Shown: piece after piece, positions 36,624-44,398 of the stretch
Layout: each line of letters opens with the position of its first letter
Position numbering within the stretch: position 1 is the first letter of the stretch
DNA from: Oscillospiraceae bacterium
GTDB taxonomy: Bacteria; Bacillota; Clostridia; Oscillospirales; Oscillospiraceae
DNA length: 46,201 nt
Assembly (NCBI GenBank): GCA_017409205.1
Contig: JAFQTF010000015.1
Span: 1 to 46,201 of the forward strand
Direction: 5' to 3'
The notes under the pieces: model-generated
What the model was told of the DNA's origin: nothing
Databases searched by the model: none
The model's input: only the letters and a program-made list of their open reading frames with translations
Position numbers and translations under genes: made by a program

Positions 36624-38321
36624 TTATGCGGCCTTCTTCTGGACAGCGCGGATGCCCATGAGGACGGCAAACATCATCAGCAGGCTAATGGGCAGAACGA
36701 TCCAGGCATTCTGGATGAAACCGGCCAGAATGTAGCCAACAAAGGTCACACCGGCAACGGTCAGCGCATAGGGCAGCTGAGTGCTGACGTGGGCAATGTG
36801 GTTGCAGTCGGCACCGGCAGAAGCCATGATGGTGGTATCGGAAATGGGGGAGCAGTGGTCGCCGCAAACAGCACCGGCCAGGCAGGCGGAGACAGCAATG
36901 ACCATCAGCTCACCGCTGGGGAACACTGCACAGACGATGGGCAGCAGAACTCCGAAGGTGCCCCAGGAGGTACCGGTGGAGAAGGCCAGGCCCACGCCAA
37001 TGACAAAGACAATGGCGGGCAGGAAGTTGGCCAGGCCGCCGGCGGCGCCGCGGACCAGCTCAGCCACAAAGACCTTGGCGCCCAGCATATTGGTGACACC
37101 GGACAGGGTCCAGGCAAAAATCAGGATCAGGATCGCGGAGGTCATGGCCTTGAAGCCATCCACAAAGGAATCAGCAAACTGCTTGAAGGTGATGACCTTC
37201 CGGGGCAGGTACAGAACGAAGGTAACTGCCAGAGCAATGAAGGCGCCCAGAACCAGACCCATGGAAGCATCGGAGTTTGCGAAAGCATCCACGAAGTTCA
37301 TGTAGGAGCCGCTTTCGGCATCGAAGAAGCCGCCGGTGTAGATCATGGTGGTAACGCAGGAAGCGATCAGCACCAGAATGGGCAGAACCAGATCCAGAAC
37401 GGTACCCTTGGAATTGGCAGCAGCCTCAGTATTCTCGTTTTCGGGATAGCCGATGCCCTGAGCGGCATTCTGCTCAGCGATACGCATCTTGCCGAAGTCC
37501 AGGCCGATGTAAGCCATGAACAGCACGGTGAACAGGGTCAGCAGTGCATACAGGTTGTAGGGAATGGAGCTGATGAACAGGCTCAGGCCCTCACCCTCGG
37601 GAGCAACAGAGGAAACTGCGGCAGCCCAGGAGGAAATGGGAGCGATGATGCAGACAGGCGCTGCAGTGGCATCGATGATGTAGGACAGCTTTTCACGGGA
37701 GACCTTGAACTTGTCGGTAACGGGACGCATGACGCTGCCCACGGTCAGACAGTTGAAGTAGTCGTCAATGAAGATCAGCATACCCAGCACGCAGGTGGAG
37801 ATCATGGCGCCGGCCCTGGACTTGATATGTGCCTGTGCCCAGCGGCCATAAGCAGCAGAGCCGCCGGCCTTATTGATCATGGAGACCATCATACCCAGCA
37901 GCACCAGGAAGATCAGGATGCCCACATTCCAGCTGTCACAGATCTTGGAGATCATGGTGTCGAATGTCACCAGGATCATATCCCAGATATTGAAGTTGGA
38001 GTAGATCAGGGCACCGGACAGGATGCCGACAAACAGAGAGGAATACACTTCCTTGGTCAGCAACGCCAGCGCAATGGCGATGATAGGGGGAAGCAGTGCC
38101 ATAAAGGTGGCATAGCTGCCAACGGAATCCCGTGCAATGGTCAGTGCATCGGAAATATTGGCATCAAAGTCGGGATCCACACCCACATTGTCGGCATAGC
38201 CGTCCAGATAGGCGAAGGCATCCTCAGAGCTCAGTTCGGCGGCGCTGACAGTCATGGTCATGACGCCCACCAGCATGACCAGCATCAGGATCATGCTCAA
38301 AAGTCTTGTGGTTCTTCTCAT
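36624..38321 (-). CDS. NhaC-family transporter under lysine riboswitch control (probable lysine transporter)
   Basis: A 565-residue polytopic protein of the NhaC Na+/H+ antiporter superfamily, with FIDDYFNCLTVGSVMRPVTDKFKVSREKLSYIID, GLAFSTGTSWGTFGVLLPI and GDHCSPISDTTIMAS as family hallmarks. Unusually, it begins with what looks like a cleavable signal peptide (1-27, ending VSA-AE) and a ~45-residue acidic extracytoplasmic segment before the first transport helix. The leader contains a lysine riboswitch. NhaC-superfamily members in lysine regulons of Gram-positive bacteria were predicted to be lysine transporters (LysW), so lysine rather than only Na+ is the likely substrate. An AAAGGAAA site precedes the start. 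Confidence 0.85.
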   Translation of the reverse strand: MRRTTRLLSMILMLVMLVGVMTMTVSAAELSSEDAFAYLDGYADNVGVDPDFDANISDALTIARDSVGSYATFMALLPPIIAIALALLTKEVYSSLFVGILSGALIYSNFNIWDMILVTFDTMISKICDSWNVGILIFLVLLGMMVSMINKAGGSAAYGRWAQAHIKSRAGAMISTCVLGMLIFIDDYFNCLTVGSVMRPVTDKFKVSREKLSYIIDATAAPVCIIAPISSWAAAVSSVAPEGEGLSLFISSIPYNLYALLTLFTVLFMAYIGLDFGKMRIAEQNAAQGIGYPENENTEAAANSKGTVLDLVLPILVLIASCVTTMIYTGGFFDAESGSYMNFVDAFANSDASMGLVLGAFIALAVTFVLYLPRKVITFKQFADSFVDGFKAMTSAILILIFAWTLSGVTNMLGAKVFVAELVRGAAGGLANFLPAIVFVIGVGLAFSTGTSWGTFGVLLPIVCAVFPSGELMVIAVSACLAGAVCGDHCSPISDTTIMASAGADCNHIAHVSTQLPYALTVAGVTFVGYILAGFIQNAWIVLPISLLMMFAVLMGIRAVQKKAA

Positions 38322-38381: not shown

Positions 38382-38410
38382 CACAAGGCTATCGCCAATA
38401 CACGAAGAAT

Positions 38411-38570
38411 GATAGCGCTCCACGAAATGTGACAGTCCGGCGGATATTCTCCGACGGCCCAGCGCCGCTGCCCGGGAAGCAGTCTGCGCTTCGGCGGAGC
38501 GCCCTTTCCCTCTGCCGGAATTCCCGTTCCATTGGCAGAAGTACTGATACACACCGCACCTCTATCGATC
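38411..38570 (-). ncRNA. Lysine riboswitch (L-box)
   Basis: The minus-strand leader carries the conserved lysine aptamer blocks in the right order: AGAGGTGCG (about 38564-38556), a GTATCAGTAC-type helix, GGCAGAGGGAAAGGGCG, GCCGAAGCGCAGACTGC, CGGCGCTGGGCCGTC and GGACTGTCAC (38438-38429). CTATC/GATAG sequences at both ends can close P1 (38562-38566 with 38411-38415). A promoter lies directly before it and an intrinsic terminator after it, so lysine binding should stop transcription of the transporter gene. Confidence 0.93.
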
Positions 38571-38593
38571 CACAGTTTTCAATTGATAGCCAA

Positions 38594-39589: not shown

Positions 39590-40609
39590 CTATGGGATCG
39601 GGAATTTGGTGCCGTCCTCCAGAAGGAGATGGTCCACCTGATCGAGAATGATGGGGGTCTCCACTTTGTAGGTGATGAAGTCCGGCGCGCCAAAAGACTG
39701 GTTCATCGTGATCTTTTCCCTGTTTTTCATCACCGCATACAAATCCCCAAATTCTGCGTTTTTCGGCTTTTCCCCAAAGCGGAAGGAAAGCTCTGCACCC
39801 AAGGCCCAGAGGTTCAGGGCTGTGATCTGTCCTTCCTGAGGCTCGGTGACGGCCATCATGGTGTTTTCTCCTGTCCTTTCATAGCCCACGGTTACCTGCC
39901 GGGTGATGGGTACCGGCTCCTGAATAAAGGCAATGCTGCGGTTGCAGTCCTCCGGGAAGTGGATATCAAAGCTCCAGCAGCCCTCCGTCAGCACTTCTGT
40001 ACAGACCTCCATGTGTTCCCGCCATACCGCCTCCAGACCGTAGACATACAGGCGGCAGTTTTGCTCGGAAAAGGGCGTTTCATTGTTCCATGCAGTATTG
40101 ATGGAATACAGCAGCTTCACCCGGTTGTCTGTCCGGTCATCGTCCTGAAGCGACCATTCCATGCACATGGCAGAGGGCATTGCCTCACTCTCCAGAATCG
40201 TGCCGCGAATATCCGAATAGCTGTCTGCATCCAGAATCTTCCCGCTGGGAGCCGTCAGCTCAAACTGAATCAGAATATCACGGCCGTCAGAAAAGACAGA
40301 CTGCAAGGTCAGGGTGTAGCCATTGACGGTCTGACTTTTGTTCACATCGAGGGTATTGGCCACAATATACTCCACCTGCTCTGCAGAAAGCTTTCCCGGT
40401 GCAACATCTGAAAAATACTGCAAGAACCAGCCCGCACCCCCCATTGCCGTACAGGCAGTTATCATCAAAAGACAGGCAATCAGTGCAGCCGCAATGAGCA
40501 CGCTGCGGTTGACAAGACGTTTTCTCGCCGGACCGGGCTGATCCGCCACTTCAGCGATCAGATCCTCATCCAGCTCATTCAGTATCCGCAAAAGATTCCA
40601 TGCAGTCAT
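39590..40609 (-). CDS. Probable anti-sigma factor, DUF4179-like
   Basis: A 339-residue single-pass membrane protein. Residues 1-34 are a short cytoplasmic part, 36-58 a membrane helix (VLIAAALIACLLMITACTAM), and the rest an extracytoplasmic domain. KSQTVNGYTLTLQSVFSDGRDILIQFEL resembles the DUF4179 domain found in proteins encoded next to ECF sigma factors. Its start overlaps the sigma factor stop in ATGA, so translation is coupled. The likely role is to hold the sigma factor at the membrane until a signal arrives; this is inferred from the gene pair. Confidence 0.8.
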   Translation of the reverse strand: MTAWNLLRILNELDEDLIAEVADQPGPARKRLVNRSVLIAAALIACLLMITACTAMGGAGWFLQYFSDVAPGKLSAEQVEYIVANTLDVNKSQTVNGYTLTLQSVFSDGRDILIQFELTAPSGKILDADSYSDIRGTILESEAMPSAMCMEWSLQDDDRTDNRVKLLYSINTAWNNETPFSEQNCRLYVYGLEAVWREHMEVCTEVLTEGCWSFDIHFPEDCNRSIAFIQEPVPITRQVTVGYERTGENTMMAVTEPQEGQITALNLWALGAELSFRFGEKPKNAEFGDLYAVMKNREKITMNQSFGAPDFITYKVETPIILDQVDHLLLEDGTKFPIP

Positions 40610-41166
40610 ACCCGAATCCCCTCCTTTTCAAGCTGTGTTCTGAGTTTCTTCCGAATGCGCAGCAGCATGGATTTCACCTTACTTTGAGAAAAACCATACC
40701 GCTGTGCAATTTCCGCAATGGAATCCATGCGCCAGTACCGGCAGAGAAAAATCTGGCGCTCAGGCTGGGGCAGACTGCGCACAAAAGAATTGAGCATTTC
40801 TCTCAGTTCCATGCACTCCAGTTCCTGCTGCGGATCTCCGCCGCCGGATATACAGTCCTTCAGTTCCTCCAAAACCAGCAGCACCTCTCCGCCGCCCCGT
40901 TTTTTTGCCAGGTTATGATCCCAGCGATCCAACGCATTTCGCCTCGTGAGCTTGCCCAGAAAGGCTGACAGACAATTGGGGATATGAGGCGGGATGGAAT
41001 TCCATGTGTCCATGTAAGTATCGCTGACAGCCTCCTCTGCATCCCGGCTGTCAGATAAAATACGGTATGCGATGGAATAGCAGAATCCGCCATACTTGGA
41101 AGCAGTGGAGGCAATGGCTTCCTCGCTGCGCTGCAAATATAGCTGGATGATCCGTTGATCGTCCAT
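40606..41166 (-). CDS. ECF-type RNA polymerase sigma factor
   Basis: A 186-residue sigma-70 family factor with only regions 2 and 4. Region 2 (about 10-75) has SIAYRILSDSRDAEEAVSDTYMDTWNSIPP and region 4 (about 120-175) has LPQPERQIFLCRYWRMDSIAEIAQRYGFSQSKVKSML. The start at 41166 (MDDQRIIQLY) has AAGGAG; a longer frame to 41274 has no site. It overlaps the anti-sigma gene by 4 bases. Target genes cannot be deduced from the window. Confidence 0.92.
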   Translation of the reverse strand: MDDQRIIQLYLQRSEEAIASTASKYGGFCYSIAYRILSDSRDAEEAVSDTYMDTWNSIPPHIPNCLSAFLGKLTRRNALDRWDHNLAKKRGGGEVLLVLEELKDCISGGGDPQQELECMELREMLNSFVRSLPQPERQIFLCRYWRMDSIAEIAQRYGFSQSKVKSMLLRIRKKLRTQLEKEGIRV

Positions 41167-41243
41167 GGTATCAGCTCCTTTCACCCTTCCAGTCGGAAAA
41201 CAGGTTTCTCCGGTTGCAGCCGCACATGAATTTTGCAGAAAAA

Positions 41244-41267
41244 CCCCGGCTTCCGAGGAAGCCGGGG
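41244..41267 (-). terminator. Terminator of the permuted lipoprotein gene
   Basis: A GC-rich stem (41244-41254 with 41257-41267) followed on the minus strand by TTTTTC, 30 bases after the stop. Confidence 0.9.
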
Positions 41268-41295
41268 CAATCATTACATTGGATCAGACAGGAAC

Positions 41296-43131
41296 TTAGG
41301 GCAGCAGGGGCTCGTTGATGTTCCAGCAGACGTAGTAGGTACCGATCTGGCCAACGACGGTGAATTCGTTGGGGAATTCTTCCTTCATAGCAGCCATTTC
41401 GTTGGTGGGGCAGTCATCGATGAACTGCCAGGTGTCGTTCTTCCAGTTGGTCAGCTGGTTGTTGGAGTCATCGGACAGGAAGCAGTTGATCTCTTCCATG
41501 ACGACGTTCTCAGCGTCCCAGTAGTGCTCGTTCTTAGCCAGGTTGATGACGGAGTCATGCTCCCAACCGACCATGGTGTAAGCACCGTTGGAGATGTAGG
41601 TGGAGGGATCGGTTGCCCAGCCTTCGTTACCAACGACATCCTCGCGGACGGGGAAGTAGGTGGGGAATGCCAGCAGCTCGTTCCAGTAAGCAACGGAGTT
41701 GCTCAGAGTGACTTCCAGAGTCTTGTCATCGATAGCGGTGACAGCCAGCTCAGCGCCTTCTTCCTCGGCCCAAACTTCGCTGTAGCCCTTAACGACTTCG
41801 AACATGTAGTTGTAGTCAGCAGCCAGCTCGACGGAGGCAGCGCGCTTCCATGCGAACTCGAAGTCATGAGCAGTCAGAGCCTGACCGTCGGACCACTTCA
41901 GGCCGTCCTTCAGGGTGTAGGTGTAGGTGACGGTGCCGTCTTCGTTGACAACGCCTTCGACCAGCTCTTCAGCGCAGTCAGCCACGATAGCCAGGTTGCC
42001 GTCAGCGTCTTCGGACCACTTGGCCAGACCTGCGAACAGGTGGGAAACCATGGTAGCGCCGTCAACAGCGGAGTTCAGAGCGGGATCCAGGGTGTCGGGC
42101 TCGGAGGACAGGCAGATGTTGATGCTTTCGCCGGAGCCGCTGACAGTAGCCTGATGGAAGTACTTGTAGCCCAGGGGGTTAACGACCATGCCGTCAACGG
42201 TCTCGTCAACAACAAAGACGTCGGTGTAGAAGTACAGGGGAACGATAGCGCCGGTGCTCATCAGCAGATCCTCAGCCTTGTGCATCAGAGCCATACGCAT
42301 GGTGTTGTCGGTGGTGGACTTGATCAGGGGGATGATGACGTCGAAGGTCTCAGCCCAGGTGCCGTTCTCGACCTTGATGTCGAAGCCCAGGTCGGTCAGA
42401 TCCAGGTTGTAGACAGCCAGGTCAGCGTGGCCCTCGCGGCCGAACTGAACGTCGTTGTTGCCGGAGCCGGTGGTCCACATATCCAGGAAGCAGATGGGAT
42501 CGTTGTAGTCAGCCAGCCAGCCATTACGGGCGATGGAGTAGTTGCCTTCCTTACGGGTGTTCAGGAAGGTGTTCCATTCCTGGTTCTCCAGCTGCATGTT
42601 GATGCCAACACCGGCCAGAGCGGACTGCAGGTACTCACCGATAGCCTTGTGGCCTTCGGAAGTGTTGTACAGGTAGGTCAGGGTGGGGAAGTTGGTCAGC
42701 ATGCCGTTGGCATCGACCTCGTAGTACTTGGTCAGGATCTCGTATGCCTCAGCATAGTTGTCCTCGAAAGCAGCGGGATCAACATTGTAGTAGCCGTAGA
42801 ACTCGTCGCTGGAGCCGGCATTGTGGTAGAACTGGGAGCCGTCAGCATCGGTCATGCCCATGGGCACGAAGGAAGAAGCGGGGACCTGACCGGCCTGGCC
42901 GATTTCCTCAACGATGTAAGTACGGTCGAACAGCAGGGAGATTGCATAGCGAATCTCAGCCTCGGCAGCAGCCTTTTCAGCCTCGGTCATTTCTGCAGGA
43001 GCAGCAGCCTCAGTGGCAGGTGCCTCGGTAGCAGCGGGTGCTTCAGTAGCAGCGGGCTCAGAGCTGCCGCCGCAAGCGACCAGACCCAGAACCATAGCCA
43101 GTGCCAGAAGCAGGGTTACGATTTTCTTCAT
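41296..43131 (-). CDS. Oligopeptide-binding lipoprotein (SBP family 5) with circularly permuted domain order
   Basis: A 611-residue surface lipoprotein (lipobox LVAC, Cys20; Ala/Glu/Pro/Thr-rich tether 21-50). Family members normally run from EPxTLDP through YTFxLRDGxKWSDG and the SNGPF/YWD blocks to a later VRxALSxLxDR...GWxxDYNDP...PLYFYTD half. Here the later half comes first: EIRYAISLLFDR (59-70), NGWLADYNDP (203-212), VPLYFYTD (297-304) and the normal C-terminus KYFHQAT (323-329). Then a SGSG linker leads to EPDTLDP (344-350), YTLKDGLKWSDG, YISNGAYTMVGW and the end at NINEPLLP, exactly where the normal second half would begin. It has its own promoter, site and terminator. No ABC permease genes are adjacent. 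Start 43131 (MKKIV) has GGAGG. Confidence 0.88.
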   Translation of the reverse strand: MKKIVTLLLALAMVLGLVACGGSSEPAATEAPAATEAPATEAAAPAEMTEAEKAAAEAEIRYAISLLFDRTYIVEEIGQAGQVPASSFVPMGMTDADGSQFYHNAGSSDEFYGYYNVDPAAFEDNYAEAYEILTKYYEVDANGMLTNFPTLTYLYNTSEGHKAIGEYLQSALAGVGINMQLENQEWNTFLNTRKEGNYSIARNGWLADYNDPICFLDMWTTGSGNNDVQFGREGHADLAVYNLDLTDLGFDIKVENGTWAETFDVIIPLIKSTTDNTMRMALMHKAEDLLMSTGAIVPLYFYTDVFVVDETVDGMVVNPLGYKYFHQATVSGSGESINICLSSEPDTLDPALNSAVDGATMVSHLFAGLAKWSEDADGNLAIVADCAEELVEGVVNEDGTVTYTYTLKDGLKWSDGQALTAHDFEFAWKRAASVELAADYNYMFEVVKGYSEVWAEEEGAELAVTAIDDKTLEVTLSNSVAYWNELLAFPTYFPVREDVVGNEGWATDPSTYISNGAYTMVGWEHDSVINLAKNEHYWDAENVVMEEINCFLSDDSNNQLTNWKNDTWQFIDDCPTNEMAAMKEEFPNEFTVVGQIGTYYVCWNINEPLLP

Positions 43132-43161
43132 AATCTTTTCCTCCAATAGAGATTTTATGAA

Positions 43162-43241
43162 CGCTGTTTACTGGATGTAAACAGTGACATACAGGAAAGA
43201 TTCTGTTTCCGGTGGAAACAGAAAAGAGCGGTACCGCTCTT
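43162..43241 (-). promoter_or_regulatory. Triple-hairpin 5' leader of the lipoprotein gene
   Basis: Three consecutive perfect inverted repeats: CTGTTTAC/GTAAACAG (43164-43171, 43177-43184), a 10-bp stem TTCTGTTTCC/GGAAACAGAA (43201-43210, 43214-43223), and the 18-bp palindrome AAGAGCGGTACCGCTCTT (43224-43241). They lie in a ~150-nt leader. None is followed by a T-run, so they may stabilise the mRNA or bind a protein rather than terminate. Confidence 0.65.
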
Positions 43242-43287: not shown

Positions 43288-43316
43288 ATTATATCTGAAT
43301 CCCAACAATTTTGCAA
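43288..43316 (-). promoter_or_regulatory. Promoter of the permuted lipoprotein gene
   Basis: On the minus strand, TTGCAA, 17-base spacer and TATAAT. The transcript should begin near 43281. Confidence 0.8.
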
Positions 43317-43690: not shown

Positions 43691-44100
43691 TCATGCCTTT
43701 GTCAATTTCTGATACATCTTCATCAGCTCAGCCACACATTCGGTTTCCGTATTCAGCCTACCCCAGAAGCCGTAGGCCTGCATGACTGCTTTGTCATTTT
43801 GCTGGTGAGCCTTGCGGAGCTCCGGAGGCATGGTGACTTCATCATACAGATCGGCGAGACTGCAATCAGGGTACAATGCTCTGGCATCCAGGATAGCCTG
43901 TGCGGTCTGCTCGATGTTTGCTTTCTGTGCATCCGTAGGTGTAGGCCAAGGAAAGTTGTTATAGACGATATCCTTGGAATAGCGATAATCACTTTTTAAC
44001 CGGCCTGCTACAGCCCGCATCCAGGCATTGTGAACATTAGATGTAAGGATGCCGAAATGGAATAGTGTAGCATCGGGTATTAAGAATCCAGTAACGCAGT
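43691..44100 (-). pseudogene. C-terminal remnant of a large DNA methyltransferase (MmeI/type IIL-like)
   Basis: The last ~135 residues of a restriction-modification or orphan methyltransferase, with FGILTSNVHNAWMRAVAGRLKSDYRYSKDIVYNNFPWP-type sequence (43960-44070), then a helical tail with LADLYDEVTMPPELRKAHQ and GRLNTETECVAELMKMYQKL. This matches the C-terminus of MmeI-like methylases. The methylase catalytic motifs (NPPY, SAM site) are missing because homology stops near 44100. The 3' end and terminator are intact, so the gene lost its 5' part by recombination. The open frame continues to 44293, but only as antisense of the next gene. Confidence 0.78.
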
Positions 44101-44104
44101 TGTT

Positions 44105-44398
44105 ATGACCAACCGGGAATTCTTCCGGCAGCGGGAATATGCCGCCCTGTGCCGCATCCCCGGTGTTCGGGAGATCATGGGTGCCTATGCTGACCAGCGC
44201 CCCGCTTTGGAAAAGCAGTATCCGGATGCAGCCTTTGCATTGAAGATCGTATCGAATCTGTTCTTCCATGACCGGGAGCTGACCAACATTCACATGAACG
44301 CTTATACCTCCATCTTAAATGGAGAGAATCTTGCCGATGCCCGGTTCCGTTATAACCGGGATATTGTAAGCTACCATCTGCGGCACAACTGGGACTGA
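44105..44398 (+). CDS. Hypothetical protein, possibly 5'-truncated
   Basis: A 97-residue soluble, charged protein beginning MTNREFFRQREYAALCRIPG. I do not recognise the family. No ribosome binding site precedes the ATG, which lies within a few bases of the point where the methyltransferase remnant breaks off, so the true N-terminus may be lost. The open frame extends back only to 44084. It is followed after four bases by a short gene with which it forms an operon. Confidence 0.5.
   Translation: MTNREFFRQREYAALCRIPGVREIMGAYADQRPALEKQYPDAAFALKIVSNLFFHDRELTNIHMNAYTSILNGENLADARFRYNRDIVSYHLRHNWD

Follow-up and report, generated by a model that had tools for sequence, protein, structure and literature searches.

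Does a gene in which the second half of an oligopeptide-binding protein precedes the first encode a genuine circular permutation, and how might such an order have come about? This question was raised by the window, that is, the whole stretch of 46,201 nucleotides analysed here (contig JAFQTF010000015.1 of an Oscillospiraceae bacterium, assembly GCA_017409205.1), for which a reading of the letters alone (the sequence-only reading) had proposed a functional, circularly permuted OppA-type lipoprotein, with a misassembly of tandem oppA copies as the alternative.

The permuted gene and its surroundings

A single open frame was found on the minus strand, running from the ATG at 43131 to 41299, with the stop codon at 41296-41298. 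Its translation gives a product of 611 aa (P0001, the window protein) that starts with MKKIVTLLLALAMVLGLVAC and carries a signal followed by LVAC, which fits the lipobox pattern, as in an exported lipoprotein. The features of the gene are as follows:

41296-43131 (-): whole permuted oppA-like gene including the stop codon, from the frame and homologues
43288-43316 (-): promoter-like site TTGCAA-17-TATAAT, 10/12 consensus matches, by consensus only
43140-43144 (-): ribosome-binding site GGAGG, 8 bases 5′ of the ATG, by eye
43072-43131 (-): lipoprotein signal peptide and lipobox LVAC, residues 1-20, from the translation
42991-43071 (-): low-complexity, alanine-rich tether (APATEA...), residues 21-47, from the translation
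42142-42990 (-): canonical second half, now first, residues 48-330, from structure-chain, doubled-profile and Pfam alignments
42130-42141 (-): SGSG linker between the former C- and N-termini, residues 331-334, from the translation and relatives
41299-42129 (-): canonical first half, now last, residues 335-611, from the same alignments as the second half
41243-41268 (-): strong intrinsic-terminator-like hairpin 3′ of the gene, 11 pairs, 8 of them G-C

By homology, residues 48-330 would comprise lobe 2 together with the end of domain I, and residues 335-611 would comprise domains I and II, with NINEPLLP forming the new C-terminus. Around the gene, four promoter-like sites were observed against 1.6 expected from shuffles, the best being at 43316-43288, and four terminator-like sites against 1.8 expected; GGAGG stands at 43144-43140. 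Promoter-like, ribosome-binding and terminator-like sites, of which the sequence-only reading had spoken, are thus present. The leader between the promoter-like site and the start codon contains two hairpins (43201-43241), which matched no Rfam family at the gathering score. The ENC of the gene, 27.1, is the lowest among 12 chosen window genes, so the codon bias that had been claimed is present, and the high expression read from it might be what this bias reflects. Together with the promoter-like and terminator-like sites, this strong codon bias accords with an expressed gene.

Just downstream of the terminator, an ECF-type sigma factor and, after it, a DUF4179 protein are encoded on the same strand (39590-41274), and a fragment from the C-terminal end of an MmeI-like restriction-modification protein lies near the gene at 43691-44293. 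Elsewhere in the window, a lysine riboswitch (RF00168, 96.8 bits, 38405-38572) sits just upstream of a membrane protein (36624-38321) that looks NhaC-like.

Order of the blocks in the window protein

Residues 54-228 and 263-328 of the window protein match residues 291-450 and 457-522 of Bacillus subtilis OppA (8are_A), and residues 335-585 match residues 20-269; because its early residues correspond to the late part of 8are_A and its late residues to the early part, the halves are reversed. The Pfam family SBP_bac_5, the sole family in a scan at E 0.001, was matched in two stretches in the wrong order with 196 bits (cut-off 32.4), and the rotated protein (331-611 then 51-330), whose end-to-end alignment had been proposed as a check, was covered as a single stretch from profile position 6 to 367 of 368 with 211 bits. 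Against the canonical profile written twice, which came from a rotated alignment that itself includes the window protein, the chain aligned as a single run from 274 to 835 with a period of 563 columns. Since this is one full turn of the doubled profile, every block is present once and nothing is doubled. None of the 46 solved sequences listed gave an end-to-end best stretch to the window protein, and the permuted order was absent from the solved chains listed as matches.

By its Pfam score and its complete set of blocks, the protein belongs to SBP family 5 (cluster C), and by its departure from the canonical block order it is a permuted variant of that family. With homologues in both orders and each block present once, it is a true circular permutation of an ordinary SBP family 5 chain. 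The earlier claims of a single frame with a lipoprotein signal, of a second half, SGSG and a first half in that order, and of all blocks kept once are borne out.

Distribution of the permuted order

The order of the window protein, hereafter CP1, was also observed in a paralogue (L198) on another contig of the same genome, with 64% identity and with oppD and oppF upstream, and end to end in 6 of the 59 other genomes of the nearest set, all six from the same genus (G002, G007, G016, G019, G024 and G029). Among the other same-genus genomes (n = 36), six carry a complete permuted gene and two a canonical one, one (G015) gave a partial match, and no such match was seen in the remaining 27. CP1 genes were also found end to end in G197 and G146, and in L110 the gene stands well inside an 88-kb contig. 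Among 80 named loci, found with permuted proteins as queries and all from metagenomic or uncultured records, 39 have the CP1 order, 30 a second rotation (CP3) and 11 the canonical order, shares that are not frequencies because these loci are the 80 most similar among 526; repeat copies of a genome that had been retrieved twice and nine ORFs lacking the pivot motif were excluded from the counts. With the paralogue, the nearest genomes and these named loci sharing one order, and with the rotated Pfam fit, the permutation that the sequence-only reading had proposed is genuine.

In an even sample of the order, searched with a junction query, 16 of 394 genomes held verified permuted genes, a count that includes G095 and G520, the gene of the latter lying in two broken frames, and in an even sample of the phylum they were verified in 10 of 398, with G000 counted in both; the phylum sample added a further CP1 gene (G821). 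The frame of the candidate gene is broken in G1149, and the gene of G520 (L231), which is of a third rotation (CP2), is split into frames of 202 and 358 aa, as a broken copy or through a sequencing error. Another CP1 gene (L126:5983-7806) lies on a contig labelled Coriobacteriaceae (Actinomycetota), and its usual signal is replaced by TRRNFLK, presumably a twin-arginine motif; the gene may have been transferred horizontally and given a new signal, or the bin may be mislabelled. The lipobox pattern was found in 40 of 41 CP1, 28 of 29 CP3, 15 of 20 CP2 and 33 of 45 canonical ORFs, counts that take in incomplete ORFs and a pattern that misses some boxes, such as LCAC.

Other rotations and their cuts

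Two further rotations, CP3 and CP2, thus occur among the relatives. CP3 proteins begin at the strand FPTLTYLYN (near residues 141-145 of the window protein) and finish at ...KYY (138), and CP2 proteins nearly always finish at or just past GNNDCQFGR (232) and begin near 255. The CP2 order was observed in 20 of 20 loci, which were fetched because they looked like CP2, from hits of about 35-49% identity. In 8are numbering, the cuts lie near 283-291 (CP1), at 359-366 (CP3) and at 450-457 (CP2); by homology, CP1 would open one of the two lobe crossings, and CP2 and CP3 would open places in lobe 2. In all three rotations a short linker, often with NG, connects the former ends; the one in the CP1 protein of L155, PTGSSISV, is unlike the others. 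Canonical members retain the full hinge loop. The canonical, CP1 and CP3 forms share roughly 57-76% identity with the window protein, and among related genomes one gene beside the same transporter genes is found in four orders.

A distant lineage, CP3b, was found in eight genomes of the phylum sample, with 31-34% identity in the query stretch and the cut at the CP3 place. The genes oppB, oppC, oppD and oppF are all downstream in seven of the eight, and oppB and oppC precede the contig end in the other; one carrier (G969) is a 3.3-Mb genome in a single contig. In the five sequences of this lineage that were read, the signal is of Sec type and lacks a cysteine lipobox. From the lipobox cysteine to the first conserved element, CP3 proteins have a median of 13.5 residues (range 7-32), and the medians for CP1, CP2 and canonical proteins are 31, 35 and 26 residues, respectively.

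Transporter genes and selection

Of 182 loci, 104 carry all four of oppB, oppC, oppD and oppF upstream of the gene, on its own strand and no more than 6.5 kb away, comprising 33 CP1, 32 canonical, 27 CP3 and 12 CP2, with the own-genome paralogue L198 among the loci that have oppBCDF beside the gene; the remaining 78 were mostly fetched with a flank of about 1.5 kb. No opp gene was found in more than 5 kb upstream of the canonical L215, and none in the 46-kb contig of the window copy, which therefore stands without oppBCDF neighbours. Compared with the OppBCDF proteins of L155, those of the named CP1, CP3 and canonical operons mostly show 70-90% identity, and because of this similarity and the shared operon slot, rotated and canonical OppA probably serve closely similar transporters. 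This shared transporter context is, short of an assay, the strongest argument that the rotated proteins work.

Nei-Gojobori (NG86) dN/dS values ranged from 0.05 to 0.25 in 14 close permuted pairs and from 0.07 to 0.26 in four canonical pairs, with a higher value of 0.38 for the window gene against L101. The low values point to purifying selection on the permuted relatives and suggest that they are working proteins. Residue D208, which we take to be the counterpart of Salmonella OppA Asp419, the holder of the peptide's amino end, is invariant in 39 of the 39 CP1 rows of the alignment. Downstream of the CP1 gene, L155 (7757-8401) and L218 (frame from 2621), which may be one genome, have an open stretch of 215 aa, perhaps a remnant, whose resemblance to a diverged family 5 binding protein is confined to the final part of the latter; in L155 the identity is about 30%.

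These observations bear on two rival readings of the window gene. That tandem oppA copies of normal order were misassembled draws some weight from the source, a metagenome-assembled genome of 62 contigs with 76.6% completeness; yet the CP1 order recurs with conserved linker and ends in separate assemblies (39/80 of the named loci, the best 80 of 526), the diverged paralogue and 6/59 nearest genomes repeat it, and the related rotation CP3b stands in a single-contig genome, so this alternative fails and we give it virtually no credence. That the rotated gene is dying or functionless and retained by chance would accord with the lack of adjoining opp genes at the window copy and with its dN/dS of 0.38, but the intact frame, the ENC of 27.1, the promoter-like and terminator-like sites, the low dN/dS among permuted relatives and the presence of all four oppBCDF genes upstream at 72 permuted loci make it very improbable.

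Phylogeny of the rotations

In the tree of 56 OppA proteins brought into one order, CP2 (100/100) and CP3 (96/98) formed clades and CP1 did not. Across the trees kept, CP2 was one clade in each and CP1 in none, and CP3 was one clade in two (with three rows in one of them) and required two changes in four others. The CP1 protein of L155 was placed deep inside a canonical clade (100/99), and the canonical L026/L027 were nested among CP1 rows beside L103 (98/89); the independent OppBCDF tree agrees, with L155 among canonical operons and the operons of L026/L027 (L196/L197) with L103, each at 100/100.

Several groupings were compared by AU tests, the groups being set by block order, yet after the first tree had been seen, and values under about 1e-30 are not to be taken literally. 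A single clade of all CP1 rows was rejected both on OppA (p 0.0002) and on OppBCDF (p far below 0.001); a single origin of CP1 minus L155 was not rejected on OppA (p 0.17) but was on OppBCDF. Also rejected were a joint clade for the canonical rows of the ingroup (p 0.003, OppA) and the placement of all permuted rows on one side (p 0.0002), a rejection that L155 may drive. One origin shared by CP3 and CP3b was rejected as well, and again at p 5e-5 after L164 and L147, which had both broken CP3 in an earlier test, were dropped; CP3b grouped with the canonical L255 and L259 (100/99). The CP3 cut was thus used at least twice.

Two cuts were therefore each used more than once: the CP1 cut in L155 and in the rest, and the CP3 cut in CP3 and in CP3b. 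Whatever the path, the trees require at least five rotations, one each for CP1, CP2, CP3, the separate CP1 of L155 and CP3b. For L026/L027, perhaps one reversal to the canonical order took place, with repeated gain of the rotation as the alternative. The OppBCDF of L198 and L129 stood beside the canonical operon L180 (95/91) in one tree and beside the CP3 pair L147/L154 in a quick tree, whereas L002, by its OppA, falls among CP1 rows; this conflict may stem from an exchange of genes among operons or from one more rotation.

A bolder reading, to which we give somewhat less than even odds, is that oppA in gut Oscillospirales-like and some other Bacillota has been rotated repeatedly and independently at a few fixed places, and at least once back from CP1 to the canonical order, with the transporter genes staying put. 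Instead, one ancient fused, double-length OppA might have been trimmed differently in each branch, the canonical relatives inside the clade being reversals. Similar short old-end junctions, often with NG, are shared by CP2, CP3 and most CP1, and the canonical L026/L027 do lie among CP1 rows in both trees, as such a history would have it; but no WSDG/WSNG marker, and hence no double-length fused copy, was seen in any ORF >850 aa among the ORFs examined, the tree with permuted rows on one side was rejected (perhaps through L155), the linker of L155 differs, CP3b is separate and the full hinge loop is kept in canonical members, so we consider this history unlikely, though it keeps a real share of the probability. 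A related question is whether the rotations were selectively neutral, with new ends tolerated at three places and duplication producing them often. The operon slot common to canonical and permuted forms, their similar dN/dS and the closeness of the old ends in oligopeptide-binding proteins (PMC10924461) speak for neutrality, and the repeated use of the CP1 and CP3 cuts and the retention of CP2 and CP3b over long branches speak against it, leaving the chances about balanced.

Proposed function and origin

Returning to the window gene, it very probably encodes a secreted, lipid-anchored, truly permuted OppA-type peptide-binding protein with the same flytrap fold, serving an OppBCDF-type transporter and belonging to a repeatedly rotated lineage. 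In a published structure of cluster C, two segments bridge the lobes, and according to its authors both chain ends lie near each other in domain I in other oligopeptide-binding proteins (PMC10924461). The permuted chain would fold into the same two-lobed flytrap because its old termini are close in domain I and its new ones fall at the first lobe crossing. A peptide would be bound in the cleft and then passed to the transporter, which for the orphan window copy would be encoded elsewhere, e.g., beside the own-genome paralogue.

In this lineage, oppA would have been rotated repeatedly at one of three places with its adjacency to oppBCDF kept, and each rotation probably proceeded by tandem duplication, in-frame fusion and trimming at both ends, the fusion-and-trimming route that the sequence-only reading had also suggested. 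Rotation would shift the lipid anchor from lobe 1 in the canonical form to the hinge in CP1 or to lobe 2 in CP2 and CP3, and the moved anchor is perhaps an advantage; since the five CP3b sequences lack a cysteine lipobox, anchor relocation cannot be the general reason.

Comparison with known systems

The OppA and DppE proteins of B. subtilis (8are, 8ay0) and Salmonella OppA (1b05) belong to SBP family 5, cluster C. The window protein has the same blocks as 8are, in three stretches of about 490 residues together, and has relatives with oppBCDF neighbours; it differs from all three in that the block order is rotated. The canonical OppA proteins of L026/L027 and of L167-L178 except L171 are about 68-76% identical to it in each half, with oppBCDF upstream where the flank suffices and with the ordinary block order. 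The best NCBIfam match, OppA, was below the cut-off for the permuted proteins scanned and likewise for the canonical L178. Since L090, a CP2 protein, is covered by the Pfam 'Middle' model in a single ordinary match, the CP2 rotation is invisible in Pfam architecture, and annotators should be cautious that such an architecture can hide a rotation.

The sequence-only reading knew of no natural permutation described in this family. Among the matches listed from the open-licence PMC literature, none described a permuted OppA or SBP family 5 protein, and to that extent the claim stands; as a claim of a new kind it has to be narrowed, given TpMglB-2 from another cluster, the one published permuted binding protein among those matches. 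In PMC4990184, TpMglB-2 (Tp0684) of Treponema pallidum is described as a circularly permuted glucose-binding lipoprotein that still binds its ligand and changes shape and has relatives in gut Gram-positives, and its authors also propose tethering as a reason for the permutation. Like the window protein, it is a natural permutation in a lipid-anchored ABC binding protein; unlike it, the fold as described there is a Type I, cluster B sugar-binding one and not SBP_bac_5, with one rotation and a weak sequence match in the moved part. The window protein, for which SBP_bac_5 is the only Pfam family, falls outside the TpMglB-2-like cluster Bc, as judged from sequence.

Several natural rotations within one fold family are also reported for PDZ domains, in four permuted forms, in a preprint (PMC12667903); that domain is smaller and the forms were found by structure comparison, whereas oppA is one orthologous operon gene in four orders. 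Saposins and swaposins (PMC3320104) belong to the same general class, with a duplication-fusion-trimming route proposed, and differ in fold and setting. Since the TpMglB-2 and PDZ permutations are reported in these sources, the kind of event was already known. The canonical and rotated OppA forms can be compared directly with closely similar transporters, and a gene set in four orders allows tests of the part played by the hinge and by the position of the lipid anchor, and of how permutations originate. To our knowledge, natural permutations have seldom been met as several rotations of one orthologous gene, and an orthologous operon gene rotated in several ways, with two cuts reused, is, as far as we know, a new variant.
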